Source: Solwaraspora sp. WMMD791 (lineage in GTDB: Bacteria; Actinomycetota; Actinomycetes; Mycobacteriales; Micromonosporaceae). From it: a stretch of 64,000 nucleotides of DNA. Under the pieces are notes generated by a model, which searched no databases, was not told where the DNA came from, and saw only the letters and a program-made list of their open reading frames with translations. The translations under genes and the position numbers were made by a program. The stretch is from contig NZ_CP120737.1 of NCBI RefSeq assembly GCF_029581195.1, positions 1,550,001-1,614,000 of the forward strand, in the 5' to 3' direction. Positions 2,008-7,756 of the stretch are shown piece after piece. Position 1 is the stretch's first letter. Every line of letters starts with the position of its first letter.

Positions 2008-2990
2008 CGCGGCTGCTCTTCGGCGGCGGTGTGTGGTGCTGCGCCGTCGTCGCGGGACTGATGCTGCCGCTGATCTGGCTGGACGCCGTCGGGCACGAGG
2101 GCTACCGCCCGGAGCGGGCGGAGCTGGCGACGGCGGCCAGGGTCGTCGCGGCCGGCCTCGGGCTGGGCATCGGGTACCTGGTCGGTGTCCGTTCGTCGCC
2201 AGGGCTGGGACGCGTCGCCGTCGTCCGCCGGTGGGCGATCACCGGCGGCACCGCCGCCGGTGCGGCCGTGGCGCACCTGGTGGCGGACGAGGCCACCTAC
2301 CGGTACGTGATCCCCGTGGAGTCGACCAGCGTCGACGGGGCAGACCCGGTGGCGGCGATGGCGTGGGCCTGGCTGGTCGGTGCGCTGCTGGCGGTCGGTG
2401 CCGCCACGGTCGGGTTCGGGATCGGGCTGCTCCGCCGGGACGACACGCGGAGCCGGGGACGTCGGTGGTACGCGGTCGCGGCCGCCGTGGCGGTCGCCGG
2501 TCTGCTCGCCGTACCCGAGTTCGTCCGCGTCGGTGCGGAGCTGGCCACCGCACGGTTCCTGCCGGCGGGGTTCGTCACGGTGCCGGTCGGGCAGCCGGTG
2601 CCGGTCGTCCTGCCCGTCGGGCGCAGCGCCATCTTCGGCGACTACGGCCAGGAATGGTCCGCCGAGGACTGCCGGGTCACCGATGCCGACGGCACCCCGA
2701 TCAGGGTGAGGGCGCCGTCGGTGCCGTTCACGGACAACAGCGACAGCATCGTGACGGTGGTGCTGGGCACCATCGAGGTGCCCAGCACCACGTCCGTCAC
2801 CGTGCAGTGTCAGGGCCTACCGGGGCGGATGTACCAGGTCGGTGCGGCGCCGACCGTCGACGGACCACTCGGCCCGCTGCTGTACGTCCCGGCCTGGGTC
2901 CTGCCGGTGGGCGGCGCCCTGCCAGGGTCGGTGCTGGCCGTGGCGGTGGCCCTGGTCCGGCGGGGTCAGTCCTCGGCGCGCCAGCGGTAG
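2004..2990 (+). CDS. Polytopic membrane protein of unknown function
   Basis: The gene starts at a GTG that overlaps the preceding stop codon and encodes 328 residues. Hydrophobic segments lie near residues 3-27, 45-62, 75-92, 118-145 and 155-172. A soluble, probably extracytoplasmic domain of about 110 residues follows (roughly 185-295, with two cysteines), and a final membrane segment lies near 300-320. No known family was recognised. The last 25 bp overlap, tail to tail, the 3' end of the cyclase gene on the other strand, so the two convergent transcripts share their ends and no terminator hairpin is evident between them. Coupling to the upstream helical-repeat protein suggests the two products act together, but nothing in the sequence says how. 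Confidence 0.6.
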   Translation: MTRLLFGGGVWCCAVVAGLMLPLIWLDAVGHEGYRPERAELATAARVVAAGLGLGIGYLVGVRSSPGLGRVAVVRRWAITGGTAAGAAVAHLVADEATYRYVIPVESTSVDGADPVAAMAWAWLVGALLAVGAATVGFGIGLLRRDDTRSRGRRWYAVAAAVAVAGLLAVPEFVRVGAELATARFLPAGFVTVPVGQPVPVVLPVGRSAIFGDYGQEWSAEDCRVTDADGTPIRVRAPSVPFTDNSDSIVTVVLGTIEVPSTTSVTVQCQGLPGRMYQVGAAPTVDGPLGPLLYVPAWVLPVGGALPGSVLAVAVALVRRGQSSARQR

Positions 2991-3643
2991 TACTCGGTGG
3001 CCACCGCGTCGACCGGTCCGCGCCAGGTGTCCTGGTTGTACGGGCTGATGTACGGGCTGAGCTCCTGCATGATCTTGCCGAACTTGGGCTTGTCGTGGAT
3101 TCGGGCGTCGTCAGCGGTGTGCGCGACCGAGCGTTCCAGCAGGTGCACGTAGACGTCGTCGATGGAGTAGAGCCACCGGGCCGTCACGCTCATCTCCACC
3201 GGCAGTGTGCCGGCGTCGGACTCGGTGAAGATCTGGGCCACGTTCTCCTCGGCGCCGGGCTTGATCCGCCCGACGATGACGGTCAGGTGCCGCTCGCCCG
3301 AGTCCGGTCGGGATCCGGCGTCGTCGGCCGGCGCCCACCGGTAGAACTCCTTGGCGACCGAGTGCGACGGGTTCTGCCAGTTGCGCGGGTACGGGGTGAC
3401 GTACGGGCCGATCGCCTCGGCGATCTCCTTGAACGCCGGCAGCCCCCGGTTCTGCCCGGAGATCGCCGGGTCCTCGTTGCGCTCCACGATGTGGATGTAG
3501 AGGTCGTGGTGGGACAGCAGGATGCGTCCGATCACGCCGAAGTCCTGTGGCCGGGTGGCCTTGTCGTAGTGGCCGAACACCTTGGCGATCTTGTCCTCGC
3601 TGCCCGGCACCATGCGGCAGACGATCACGTTGCGGAAGACCAT
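2966..3643 (-). CDS. Tandem-domain TcmI-family polyketide cyclase
   Basis: The 225-residue product contains two homologous TcmI-type cyclase domains, roughly residues 1-107 and 116-222. Both halves show the same order of motifs: an N-terminal VIV-R-PG strand, a central YIH-ER or YVH-LER strand, an 'SPY' or 'TPY' turn and a closing 'EFYRW' or 'EYYRW'. TcmI proteins of the tetracenomycin type are usually about 110 residues, so this is a duplication and fusion that may fold as an intramolecular version of the normal dimer. Family members catalyse late ring closures of aromatic polyketides. GAGGAG lies 7 nt upstream of the ATG. The gene is the last of the tailoring cassette, about 100 bp after the P450. 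The enzyme class is clear; the substrate is unknown. Confidence 0.85.
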   Translation of the reverse strand: MVFRNVIVCRMVPGSEDKIAKVFGHYDKATRPQDFGVIGRILLSHHDLYIHIVERNEDPAISGQNRGLPAFKEIAEAIGPYVTPYPRNWQNPSHSVAKEFYRWAPADDAGSRPDSGERHLTVIVGRIKPGAEENVAQIFTESDAGTLPVEMSVTARWLYSIDDVYVHLLERSVAHTADDARIHDKPKFGKIMQELSPYISPYNQDTWRGPVDAVATEYYRWRAED

Positions 3644-3741
3644 GACAAACTCCTCGCAGAACGGTGGGATCAGCCCGGGTCGGTACGCCCGGTGGTCGGG
3701 TGGTGGCTCAGCCGGGCCGGTTCGCCCGGTGGTCGTGGTGA

Positions 3742-4983
3742 TCAGCCGGCGGCGGTGAACCGCACCGGCAGCTCCAGCAGGCCACGGAACGGTGAGGCCG
3801 CCGGCAGCCGGGGCACCCGGTCGACCGGTACGCCCAGCCGCAGGTCCGGCAGTCGGCGCAGCAGGGTGCCGATGCCGATCCTCGCCTCGATGCGGGCCAG
3901 CGAGACCCCGAGGCAGTAGTGCACCCCGTGCCCGAAGCCCAGATGCGGACCGCGTTCGCTGGTCACGTCGAGCCGCTGCGGGTCGGTGAAGTGGTCCGGG
4001 TCGTGGTTGGCCGAGTTGAGCACGACGCCGACCGCCGCACCGCGTGGGATGCGTACGCCGTCGTACTCGATGTCCTCGGTGGCCACCCGGGGGCTGGCGA
4101 TCGGCAACGGCCCGTCGAAACGCAGCAGTTCCTCGACCGCGCCCGGCAGCAGGTCCGGCCGCTGCCGCAGCAGGTCGAGCTGGTCGGGATGGGTCAGCAG
4201 CGCCAGCATGGCGTTGCCGATGAAGTCGGCGGTGGTCTGGTGGCCGGCGAACAGCAGCAGGAACGCGGTGGAGACCAGCTCCCGCTCGGAGAGTTTCCCG
4301 CCCTGGTCGCAGGCGTCGATGAGGGCGCTGACCATGTCGTCGGCCGGCGCCACCCGCTTGGCCCGGACCAGCCCGGTCAGGTAGTCGTGCAGCAGCAGCT
4401 GTACCTGCTGCACGGCGGCCCGTTCCTGCTCCGGCGGCCGGCTGGCCGACCCGGAGGTACGGATCACCTGGGTCCAGCCGAGCACCTGTTCGTGGTCGGC
4501 CTTGGGCACACCGAGCAGTTCACAGATCACCACCATCGGCAGCGGTACGGCGAAGTCGTGCATCAGGTCCGCCTCGCCCCTGGGCACGAACTTGTCGATG
4601 AGGTCGTCGACGACCTGGGTCACCCGGGGCCGCAGCGCCTCGATGCGCCGGGGCGCGAACGCCTGGGACACCAGTCGCCGGAGCCGGCTGTGCTCCGGCG
4701 GGTCGGAGTTGAGCATGTTCTTGTTCAGCCCGTCCGAGTTCGGCCCAAAGAACCGCAGGTAGTGGCCTTCCGGGCCGTACAGGTCCTTGGACAGCCGGTG
4801 GTCGGTCAGCGCGGCGCGGGCGTCGTCGTAGCGGGTGATCAGGTAGGAGTCGAACCGGGGTGAGGAGACCAGCTGGACCGGATTCTGTTCGCGCATCCGG
4901 GCATAGGTGGGGTACGGGTCGGCGGCGTATTCGTCGGTGAAGAACTCCCCGGCCGGCACCGGTTGTTGCGCATCTGTGGTCAT
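3742..4983 (-). CDS. Cytochrome P450 monooxygenase
   Basis: This is a 413-residue bacterial class I P450. The I-helix reads AGHQTT (residues 246-251), the K-helix E-x-x-R is E285-R288, and the haem loop FGHGVHYCLG places the thiolate ligand at C357. The acidic residue normally found before the paired threonines of the I-helix is Gln249 here, which could affect proton delivery. The ATG at 4983 overlaps the stop of the upstream ABM gene (ATGA), and this decides the start over longer frames. No ferredoxin or reductase gene is nearby, so electron partners must come from elsewhere. The context with a flavin hydroxylase, ABM and TcmI domains suggests hydroxylation or oxidative coupling of an aromatic polyketide; the substrate is inferred, not shown. 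Confidence 0.93.
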   Translation of the reverse strand: MTTDAQQPVPAGEFFTDEYAADPYPTYARMREQNPVQLVSSPRFDSYLITRYDDARAALTDHRLSKDLYGPEGHYLRFFGPNSDGLNKNMLNSDPPEHSRLRRLVSQAFAPRRIEALRPRVTQVVDDLIDKFVPRGEADLMHDFAVPLPMVVICELLGVPKADHEQVLGWTQVIRTSGSASRPPEQERAAVQQVQLLLHDYLTGLVRAKRVAPADDMVSALIDACDQGGKLSERELVSTAFLLLFAGHQTTADFIGNAMLALLTHPDQLDLLRQRPDLLPGAVEELLRFDGPLPIASPRVATEDIEYDGVRIPRGAAVGVVLNSANHDPDHFTDPQRLDVTSERGPHLGFGHGVHYCLGVSLARIEARIGIGTLLRRLPDLRLGVPVDRVPRLPAASPFRGLLELPVRFTAAG

Positions 4984-5342
4984 CGCGTCTCCTCGGGCTC
5001 GCTCGGCACGCTGTGCAGCACCTGACTCGGCACGCTGTGCAGGACCTGATAGGTGTGTCGCTGCGCGGACTCCCGCAGGTCCCGGATGACCCGCAGCAGC
5101 CGGTCCCGCTGTGCGCTGCGGCCGAATGCGTCCAACCGGCCCCGGTCGGCCCAGTCGGTGACGATCAGGTAGCTGCGTGGGTCGTCGGCGTCGCGGAGCA
5201 GGTCCTGACGCAGGCAGCCGGCGAGGGTCCGGATCTGCTCGGCGATCGCCCGCCATTCGTCCTCGAACCGCTGCTCACAGCCGGGTCGGGTACGCATCGC
5301 CAGGATCGCGCGGACAGCGCCGTTCTGCGGTGGCGTGGTCAC
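4980..5342 (-). CDS. Stand-alone antibiotic biosynthesis monooxygenase (ABM) family protein
   Basis: The 120-residue product is one ABM (dimeric ferredoxin-like) domain with the typical pattern of 'ILAMRTRPGCE' near the N terminus and 'DPRSYLIVTDWAD' in the middle. Cofactor-free anthrone oxygenases such as TcmH and ActVA-Orf6 belong to this fold, so oxidation of an anthrone or naphthacenone to a quinone is the natural guess. The start overlaps the stop of the upstream hydroxylase gene and the stop overlaps the P450 start, so the three are co-translated. The C-terminal tail carries an in-frame duplication (QVLHSVPS twice) that comes from a 24-bp direct repeat at 5002-5049 with one mismatch. 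The family is clear; the exact reaction is not. Confidence 0.85.
   Translation of the reverse strand: MTTPPQNGAVRAILAMRTRPGCEQRFEDEWRAIAEQIRTLAGCLRQDLLRDADDPRSYLIVTDWADRGRLDAFGRSAQRDRLLRVIRDLRESAQRHTYQVLHSVPSQVLHSVPSEPEETR
5002..5049. repeat. 24-bp tandem duplication inside the ABM gene
   Basis: Two head-to-tail 24-bp units (5002-5025 and 5026-5049) differ at a single base (c versus g at the 17th base). They add eight residues in frame to the C-terminal tail of the ABM protein, outside the folded domain. Confidence 0.9.
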
Positions 5343-7618
5343 CGTGGACCGCCGCCGAACACCAGGTGCAGGTGGTGTCGCAGCGCTTCGGCGTCGATCG
5401 GCTGGCTGCGGAAGCCGACGTGCCCGTCCGGTCGGATCAGGTACGCGGCGGCACCGGTGATGCCGTACCGGGTCCGCACCGCCCCGTCGGTGTCGCGGAC
5501 CACCGGCGGGTGCAGCAGTGACGGCGTCGCCGCGTCCGGGCCGACGAGCAGGTACACCTCGACCTCGCCGTACGCCTGGTCCCGCACGTCGGTGCCGATC
5601 TTGTCCACCAGGGCGAGCGTGGTCTCGTCGGTGCTGTCGGCGTAGAGCAGCAGCGTGTGCCGGGTGCCCCGGGTCAGGTCCCGCAGCCGCAGCGGATGCC
5701 CGACCCCGGGGCGGTGCAGCCCGTACACGTCGGGGGCGCGGTCGCCGGCCGCCGGCCCGGCGCGCAGCGCGTCCGGGTCGGCCACCGCCTCGCCGACCAG
5801 CGGACTGTCCGCGTAGCTGACCAGCATCGACATCTCCTGCAGGAACTGGCCGGTGAGGTCCTCACGCTCCAGTTCGTCGGTGAACGCCAGCCGCACCGCG
5901 CGGCCGACGACCTGTTCACCCTGCGGTCGGCGTTCGATCTGGTAGCTGTCGAGCAGGCCGGGCGCGGCCAGGCCACGCACCGCCAGCGCCAGTTTCCAGG
6001 CCAGGTTCCAGGCGTCCTGGATACCGGTGTTCATGCCCTGGCCGCCGGCGGGTGGGTGCAGGTGCGCGGCGTCGCCGGCGACGAAGACTCGCCCGACGCG
6101 GTAGCGGTCGACGATGCCGTGACTGATCCGGAAGATCGACGACCAGCGCAGGTTCGACGCCGTCGTGCCGGGTGGGGCGAGCTGGTCCAGGACTGTCTGG
6201 ACGTCGGCGAGGGTGGGTTCGTCGAGTTCGGCGCTGAACCCGGGCGGGGCGTTCTCGCCCCGGGTGGCGGCGAAGTAGCGCGGCGGCGCCATCGTCGCGA
6301 TCCGGTAGCGGGACTCACCCCGCAGCGGTACGCAGACCAGCATGTTGTCCAGCTGGCCGTCGGTCTCGTGGATGAACCGCAGCAGGTGGCCGGGCGGCAT
6401 GTCCCAGTCGAGGTCGACGTCGCCGAGCATGAACAGTTGCGGGAACCGGCCCAGCCCGCCGGTGAAGGTCAGCCCGAGCAGTTGCCGGACGGTGCTGTGC
6501 GCGCCGTCGGCGCCGACGAGGTACCGGGCCCGGATGGTCCCGGTGGTGCCGTCGGCGTACGCGACGGTGGCGGTGACAACGTCGTCGTCGCTGGTGAAGC
6601 CGGTGAGCGCGGTGCCGCGCCGGGGCCGCACGCCGAGGGTGGCGAGCCGGTCGGTGAGGATCCGTTCGGTCTCGTACTGGGGCAGGCCCAGATGTGCGTA
6701 CGGCAGGTCCGGCAGCTCCCAGCTGCCCCGGTACACCTGGTGGCCGTTGACGAAGACGGCCTGGCCGGTCAGCCAGCTGCCGGCGTTCATCGCCTCCCGG
6801 ACGACGCCCTGGTCCTCCCAGATCTCCATGGTGCGGCAGTGCACGCCGATCGCCTTGTCCGCCTGGCTGGGCGGGCTGGTGAGCGTGTCGATCACCTGGC
6901 AGTCGACGCCTCGGCGGGCGAGTTCGATCGCGGCGGTGAGCCCGGTCGGGCCGGCGCCGACGATCAGCACGTCGGTGGTGTCGGCGGGTGCCGCTGGCGA
7001 GTCGGTCGGCACCGCTGGCGGGTCGGTCGGCGGGTCGGCGGGGTGGAAGATCCGGGGGCGGATCCCGACGAGGAACTCGGCGATCGGGCCGGCTTCGGCC
7101 CGCTCGTGGTCGGGGTCGGAGATCCACCGGCGGAACTGCTCCTGGCTGCGCCACTCGGCGAAGATGTGGTGCACCGGGCTGCCGGGTTCGCGCAGCAGCT
7201 CCTCACGCAGGTAGCCGTCCACCCCGGACAGCCGGGTGACGACCTCGGCGTGCCCACGGTGGAACTCGTCGACCCGGTCGGCCGGAACGGTGATCGCCAC
7301 GTCGACGTAGATCCGGGAGTCGGCACCGGCCCGGCCACGCATCACCCGGTAGCTGCCGGCGTCCGGTGGTTCGCAGGCGGCCGCTACGGCGTCGGCCCAC
7401 TGCCGGGCGAGGGGGCCGTCGAGGTGGTCGCGCAGCGCGTCGTCGTCGGCCCATTCGGTGACCGCGACGAAGGTACGCGGATCGGTGGCGTCGACGAGCA
7501 GTTGGCGCAGCCGGTTGCCGGGCGAGGCACCGATGCCGTCGGCGACGGCCTGCCACGCTGACTCCACAACCGTCTCGAATCCGCTGCGGGCGCGGACCCG
7601 GAGCATCGTCCTGATCAT
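5339..7618 (-). CDS. ABM-ABM-FAD aromatic hydroxylase fusion (polyketide tailoring)
   Basis: The 759-residue protein joins two ABM domains (about 1-95 and 102-190) through a Pro/Ala-rich linker (192-214) to a group A flavin hydroxylase. The flavoprotein part shows the dinucleotide fold GAGPTG (221-226), the DG motif (D371-G372) and the GD motif with ribityl contacts (G515-D516, then HPPAGGQGMN). It ends in the thioredoxin-like C-terminal domain typical of phenol-hydroxylase-like polyketide oxygenases (about 625-759). A GGGGGA Shine-Dalgarno supports the ATG at 7618 over an in-frame start 18 codons upstream. This is the first gene of the four-gene cassette. TcmG/PgaE-type relatives hydroxylate aromatic polyketides, and the duplicated N-terminal ABM pair is unusual. 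The substrate is unknown. Confidence 0.85.
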   Translation of the reverse strand: MIRTMLRVRARSGFETVVESAWQAVADGIGASPGNRLRQLLVDATDPRTFVAVTEWADDDALRDHLDGPLARQWADAVAAACEPPDAGSYRVMRGRAGADSRIYVDVAITVPADRVDEFHRGHAEVVTRLSGVDGYLREELLREPGSPVHHIFAEWRSQEQFRRWISDPDHERAEAGPIAEFLVGIRPRIFHPADPPTDPPAVPTDSPAAPADTTDVLIVGAGPTGLTAAIELARRGVDCQVIDTLTSPPSQADKAIGVHCRTMEIWEDQGVVREAMNAGSWLTGQAVFVNGHQVYRGSWELPDLPYAHLGLPQYETERILTDRLATLGVRPRRGTALTGFTSDDDVVTATVAYADGTTGTIRARYLVGADGAHSTVRQLLGLTFTGGLGRFPQLFMLGDVDLDWDMPPGHLLRFIHETDGQLDNMLVCVPLRGESRYRIATMAPPRYFAATRGENAPPGFSAELDEPTLADVQTVLDQLAPPGTTASNLRWSSIFRISHGIVDRYRVGRVFVAGDAAHLHPPAGGQGMNTGIQDAWNLAWKLALAVRGLAAPGLLDSYQIERRPQGEQVVGRAVRLAFTDELEREDLTGQFLQEMSMLVSYADSPLVGEAVADPDALRAGPAAGDRAPDVYGLHRPGVGHPLRLRDLTRGTRHTLLLYADSTDETTLALVDKIGTDVRDQAYGEVEVYLLVGPDAATPSLLHPPVVRDTDGAVRTRYGITGAAAYLIRPDGHVGFRSQPIDAEALRHHLHLVFGGGPR

Positions 7619-7756
7619 GTGGTCCCCCTGAACGGCGTGCGGTGGACCTGACCTTGGCCGACACCGCGTCACCCGGCCGTCAACGCCGTACGGGGCACAG
7701 TGGGTGGCCGGTGACGCGCCGGCTACCCGTCGGGAGAACGATCTGCAGGCGTGCGC

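Follow-up and report, generated by a model that had tools for sequence, protein, structure and literature searches.

A detached tailoring cassette and a distant WhiE-like core in Solwaraspora are probably one split type II polyketide pathway

The closest described relatives of the system analysed here are the whiE spore-pigment pathway and the pathways to pentangular polyphenols. In the sections of the literature cited here, WhiE-like pathways are reported from Micromonospora and Salinispora (PMC4255298), and the WhiE aromatase is placed in a class that works without a ketoreductase (PMC12664062). The cyclase set of the pentangular and tetracenomycin pathways has been described, with pentangular clusters carrying two adjacent ABM genes and a ketoreductase (PMC4383371). 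ABM proteins are needed together with cyclases for closure of the later rings in pentangular pathways (PMC4383371, PMC6689052); for pradimicin, an ABM protein and the cyclases are jointly required (PMC6689052, PMC4383371), and an ABM protein with a non-catalytic role in fidelity has also been reported (PMC6689052). Here we analyse a 64,000-nucleotide stretch of the Solwaraspora sp. WMMD791 chromosome (the window; positions 1550001-1614000 of a single 6.93 Mb contig), which holds a cassette of four tailoring genes: an ABM-ABM-FAD hydroxylase, a single-domain ABM protein, a cytochrome P450 and a tandem TcmI-type cyclase (Table 1).

The cassette and a second locus, which look unrelated, are probably one split pathway. 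We consider it likely that the cassette supplies the tailoring enzymes of a type II polyketide pathway that is physically split, acting in trans, under shared SARP control, on the product of a WhiE-like core 1.87 Mb away. Ketosynthase (KS) matches fall at 15 places in the genome, the nearest at 1,972,591, 415 kb from the cassette; this agrees with the initial annotation, which saw no flanking KS, and excludes a polyketide synthase (PKS) core just outside the window. Two type II pairs of KS and chain-length factor (CLF) are present, KS1 at 1.972-1.975 Mb and KS2 at 3.424-3.427 Mb. By Pfam, the KS2 core (locus L010, about 3.418-3.427 Mb) encodes a SARP with a BTAD domain, a single TcmI cyclase, acetyl-CoA carboxylase subunits, a fusion of acyl carrier protein (ACP) and aromatase, a cupin, KS and CLF; the whiE-like set of KS, CLF, ACP, aromatase, cupin and TcmI cyclase is complete in it, and the closest solved relative of its KS is the actinorhodin KS. 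No ketoreductase was found, either among the core genes scanned by Pfam or among the genes listed from the SARP through the CLF, and this gene content, with the cyclase set, is consistent with the whiE kind.

The same scan found no oxygenase among the core genes. Neither a SchA/CurD-type ABM protein with an FAD hydroxylase nor an adjacent PdmH/PdmI-type ABM pair stands beside the core, near which there is no ABM match at all; the ABM and FAD genes sit in the detached cassette. Cassette-oxygenase matches are likewise absent beside the core in 7/7 Solwaraspora PKS loci, and matches to any cassette enzyme are absent beside it in all 18 PKS loci compared from g4, a genus that we take to be Micromonospora (12 cassette-negative, 6 cassette-positive). 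A luciferase-like gene further downstream of the KS2 core recurs in 5/6 other Solwaraspora PKS loci and in none of seven further PKS loci, and was therefore not counted to the core. Directly downstream of the CLF (L010:13012-13740) lies a gene for a CdiA_C (contact-dependent inhibition toxin C-terminal) domain protein, matched in only two (L100 and L104) of the six other Solwaraspora PKS loci. The g4 PKS loci (L126-L143) carry a second TcmI-like gene past the SARP.

What is separate in Solwaraspora is joined elsewhere. In three other genera, Asanoa, g22 and g23, cassette genes lie no more than about 12 kb from a type II PKS; the cassette is thus a part, here detached, of a pathway whose kind is known, and its earlier description as an orphan and as an undescribed enzyme system is not supported. 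The g22 locus L065 brings together CLF, KS, cupin, ACP-aromatase, acetyl-CoA carboxylase, SARP, tandem cyclase, ABM-ABM-FAD hydroxylase, ABM protein and P450, and the cassette adjoins a type II PKS in the g23 locus L144 as well. All six Asanoa loci (L064, L145, L161, L162, L163 and L165) are linked, with no separate ABM gene matched; the cassette stands beside a type II PKS in G027 and G353 and at these six loci. Within about 20 kb of the cassette, a KS match was found in G024 and G027 and none in the six other Solwaraspora loci, G007 or G009. In G015, G025 and G184, a relative of the ABM-ABM-FAD protein lies beside a KS/CLF pair without a tandem cyclase.

The cassette is unlinked to a PKS in Solwaraspora, g2 and g4. 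In plain contig coordinates, and for pairs among the KS matches listed, the distance is 1.9-5.3 Mb in Solwaraspora and 3.3 Mb in G007, while 31 of the 34 same-contig pairs listed for g4 lie 83-358 kb apart and three lie 1.5-2.3 Mb apart. The initial annotation had held that a PKS core just outside the window, or consistent presence beside a PKS in relatives, would make the cassette an ordinary cluster edge: there is no such core, and relatives carry the cassette both beside and away from a PKS. Over 21 genomes, cassette and PKS protein distances correlate (r 0.52-0.83, 0/2000 permutations as high), a correlation that common descent by itself could produce.

The tandem cyclase is 88-99% identical in the six other Solwaraspora genomes searched and the four-gene order is kept in all six, so the cassette is not a chance arrangement. 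A search of 61 genomes with the tandem cyclase as query gave matches at E 1e-3 in 20 and matches spanning the whole tandem length in 11 (seven Solwaraspora, G007, G009, G024 and G027); all 11 have a KS with at least 71% identity to KS2, as have G016 and G026, which lack a full tandem match. A survey of 346 genomes of the family, Micromonosporaceae (tandem cyclase at E 1e-50, KS2 at E 1e-185 with five KS candidates scored per genome, ABM-ABM-FAD at E 1e-200) found the three proteins in 76, 184 and 71 genomes, respectively. KS2 is present in 73 of the 76 tandem-cyclase genomes (exceptions G281, G300 and G353) and the ABM-ABM-FAD protein in 67. Co-occurrence of cassette and PKS gives a Fisher P of 3e-20 over genomes, which are not independent; by genus, P is 0.005 (5/6 cassette genera among 12/42). 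The initial annotation had asked whether the cassette travels with a type II PKS that has no oxygenases of its own, and these counts, with the oxygenase-free core, answer in the affirmative. Within g4, 58 of 154 PKS-bearing genomes carry the cassette. Beyond the survey, a sample of 393 genomes of the class gave the tandem cyclase (E 1e-40) in three, all of this family, and no characterised cluster of another family. A scan of named genomes yielded three cassette loci, two in Micromonospora and one in Asanoa iriomotensis, with no KS match in the 20 kb around the cassette at either Micromonospora locus. These two loci have the same detached cassette as g4, which is the large genus of the family, hence our equation of g4 with Micromonospora. 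Reduced cassettes also occur in g4: L157 (G197) shows the ABM protein and tandem cyclase only, L158 (G311) only the ABM-ABM part of the hydroxylase, and L067 (Micromonospora sp. MW-13) no hydroxylase match in the stretch examined.

A candidate promoter element ties the two loci together. In a comparison of promoters from 13 cassettes and 11 PKSs, the pattern GCGTCA-N(29-33)-ACG-N6-TGACG was common to many; it precedes the hydroxylase gene here (Table 1) and the PKS operon at 3,418,805, and before both operons the composite element contains direct repeats spaced by 11 bp. All seven Solwaraspora genomes have it at both loci, with a spacer of 31 or 32. In g4, it was found at 12/19 cassette loci, at 6/7 PKS loci of cassette genomes and at 11/12 PKS loci of genomes without the cassette. 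Scanning 15 whole genomes, we found the pattern 49 times, against three for the reversed pattern; it stands before the cassette in 15/15 and before the PKS in 14/14 with known position, and in G001, G002 and G004 these are the sole two sites in the genome. In 44 further genomes the pattern occurs 136 times, against 11 reversed, and precedes the cassette in 34/43 and the PKS in 32/39. Among 35 hold-out genomes that had no part in defining the pattern, which are close relatives of g4 genomes already examined and do not count as independent events, it precedes the cassette in 31/35, the PKS in 26/30 and both in 24/30, with 41 sites elsewhere. The PKS misses are G243, G277, G278 and G306; in the first three a paired site is on a different contig from the KS, possibly owing to a contig break.

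The 11-bp pitch of the repeats agrees with the site rule given for SARPs, a heptamer plus 4 bp, in the cited section of PMC7040171. A SARP 73-75% identical to that of the PKS cluster lies directly upstream of the detached cassette in three g4 genomes (L151, L152 and L154). Judging from these promoters, cassette and PKS are probably co-regulated, and a SARP would be the protein that binds the candidate element. At the g4 PKS loci (L126-L143), the element often occurs as a mirrored pair directed at the two divergent genes. One pattern match, G000:C1:1232496-1232546, has a sequence nearly unchanged in many relatives and is probably coding sequence and a false positive.

In the pathway that we envision, the core would make a WhiE-like (spore-pigment-type) polycyclic aromatic, and the cassette enzymes would work in trans on this product, so that cassette and PKS would act on one substrate. 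By analogy with pradimicin, the ABM domains and the tandem cyclase may carry out late ring closure and quinone formation, and the FAD hydroxylase and P450 may then add further oxygens. A SARP activator, probably that of the PKS cluster, would turn on both loci through the shared repeat element, and the final product may be a spore pigment. The earlier suggestion that the set acts in trans on a polyketide made elsewhere, for example a spore pigment, is well supported now that it has a likely PKS partner and a likely regulatory tie.

Several observations weigh against this assignment. The survey includes 111 KS2 genomes without the cassette, so the core does not need it, and nearly all g4 genomes with data have the PKS, so that co-occurrence within that genus says little. 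Two draft genomes, G281 and G300, have a cassette and no close type II KS found (best KS 40%), although G281 retains the promoter element. G353 departs as well: at its g23 locus, a g4-like cassette and hydroxylase are joined to a different, distant KS lineage (64-65% identical to KS2), a pairing that suggests module exchange. As for the element, its pattern was chosen after inspection of these very promoters, and more than a third of the g4 cassette loci examined are without it. It was found in none of eight linked clusters and none of six PKS loci of other genera (two of G007; G015, G016, G025 and G026) in which it was looked for, and therefore ties the loci in two genera only. In the WMMD791 genome, three further matches stand against about 2.5 expected from first-order simulation; the pattern alone is thus not specific, and its position is.

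Three other explanations were weighed. The cassette might act on a non-polyketide aromatic or an imported compound, the PKS link being ancestral only; its place next to a sugar operon in Solwaraspora and the two cassette genomes in which no close type II KS was found (G281 and G300) would fit, yet TcmI-type cyclase domains are polyketide enzymes by family, linkage is kept in three genera and the promoter element is common to both loci in two, and we hold this account to be unlikely. Still less probable is service to the other type II PKS of the genome. KS1 is the nearer synthase, at 415 kb, and likewise of the aromatic type II; however, its locus has its own TcmI cyclase, two ABM matches, two P450 genes (matched at 40-43%) and, by eye, a reductase-like open reading frame (ORF), and its 20 kb are free of the shared element. 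Moreover, of the seven Solwaraspora genomes, all of which have the cassette, only G000, G002 and G006 showed a second KS passing the E 1e-100 limit; with tailoring genes of its own, no element and a patchy occurrence, KS1 is an improbable partner. Viewed in its own right, the KS1 locus (L009, 1.960-1.980 Mb) forms a type II PKS cluster of its own: besides its two P450 genes and the ABM matches, ORFs resembling glycosyltransferases and methyltransferases were noted by eye, and its product is perhaps a glycosylated aromatic polyketide. We give least credence to a decaying remnant without present function, for which 9/76 tandem-cyclase genomes without an ABM-ABM-FAD match at E 1e-200 and the reduced cassettes L157 and L158 might speak, since in Solwaraspora all four genes and their order are kept in 7/7 genomes, the cyclase has no internal stops and the element is kept in 7/7.

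The genes of the cassette bear out the initial annotation at the level of domains and spacing. Pfam confirms the four tailoring functions and the count of three ABM and two TcmI domains: two ABM stretches and FAD_binding_3 in the hydroxylase frame (5339-7672), one ABM stretch at 4980-5342 and two Cyclase_polyket stretches in the tandem cyclase (E 2.1e-70). The 4-nt overlaps read in the sequence are GTGA at 5339-5342 (hydroxylase/ABM) and ATGA at 4980-4983 (ABM/P450); the tandem cyclase starts 98 bp after the P450 stop, close to the 100 bp first estimated. In the ORF list, the P450 frame runs on upstream through the ABM gene as far as 5256, and that of the hydroxylase reaches 7672; we placed the starts at ATG 4983 and ATG 7618, respectively, because alignments of relatives begin about there. 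Gene calls in the analysis were made by a simple codon-GC rule.

Table 1. Cassette genes and candidate promoter element, in window coordinates
Feature	Position	Strand	Basis or remark
ABM-ABM-FAD hydroxylase, 759 aa; class A flavin monooxygenase with two ABM domains fused at its N-terminus	5339..7618	-	Pfam
Single-domain ABM protein, 120 aa, GTG start	4980..5342	-	Pfam
Cytochrome P450, 413 aa	3742..4983	-	Pfam
Tandem TcmI-type cyclase, 225 aa, domain in two copies	2966..3643	-	Pfam
Candidate promoter element GCGTCA-N31-ACG-N6-TGACG	7667..7717	-	49 bp upstream of hydroxylase start

Among solved structures, the hydroxylase is closest to rifampin monooxygenase (5kow, E 2.7e-54) and the P450 to 8w6z and PikC (E about 1e-94); the single ABM protein has weak PDB matches, including the 42.8 kDa protein of the whiE locus (E 0.0013). 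The TcmI structure 1tuw matches the N-terminal half of the tandem cyclase (E 1e-19). Asp27, Arg40 and His51, which we take to be the active-site residues of TcmI, are kept in the alignment in both halves of the tandem cyclase and in the single cyclase of the PKS core, and His26 is replaced by Tyr and Ser. A single-sequence AlphaFold model of the ABM-ABM-FAD protein reached a mean pLDDT of 37.6 and was not used. Two of 15 listed plasmid relatives of the FAD part were opened; one record has no features there and the other has no PKS gene among its 22 features. The neighbours are as first described: upstream, a GH36 enzyme (Pfam) with sugar-binding protein and permease ORFs (by eye), and downstream, a membrane-protein-like ORF (by eye).

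Biosynthetic clusters are mostly predicted by proximity, and in three genera the tailoring operon described here stands apart from its likely synthase; the candidate promoter element common to both loci in two of these genera implies that shared operators can reunite split pathways. A literature search gave no direct report of split type II clusters, and none of a product structure for the PKS present in the 154 g4 genomes of the survey, on which the cassette offers a direct handle. We tentatively propose, as a possibility that falls somewhat short of probable, that WhiE-like synthases take on, detach or drop the cassette as an exchangeable tailoring module. On this view, it is PKS-linked in three genera, in two others it has become detached while a shared SARP-type operator keeps it in the regulon, and in G353 its partner is a KS of another lineage. 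Were this so, the module would convert a simple spore-pigment scaffold into a new polyphenol with a higher degree of oxidation throughout Solwaraspora and in those g4 genomes that hold both parts (58/154), and cluster-mining that requires linkage would miss it.

Set beside whiE of Streptomyces coelicolor, the split pathway shares KS, CLF, ACP, TcmN-type aromatase, cupin and TcmI cyclase, and the lack of a ketoreductase. However, whiE is described as one cluster of eight genes, whereas here the oxygenases lie far from the core; the oxygenase set includes a P450 and a fused ABM-ABM-FAD protein and is accompanied by a tandem cyclase, and the core has its own acetyl-CoA carboxylase and SARP. With the pentangular pathways (pradimicin, benastatin, frankiamicin), as far as the cited sections describe them, it has the same three cyclase types in common; those clusters carry the adjacent PdmH/PdmI pair and a ketoreductase, neither of which is found in the KS2 core, and the ABM domains are here encoded away from the core, in the cassette, where two form part of the hydroxylase. 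Auricin (aur1) has a similar layout, its tailoring genes being described as rather distant from the type II core (PMC6784081). According to that account, however, they lie in the flanks of one cluster on one plasmid, whereas in the three genera with an unlinked cassette they are chromosomal and separated from the core by 0.08 to several Mb.

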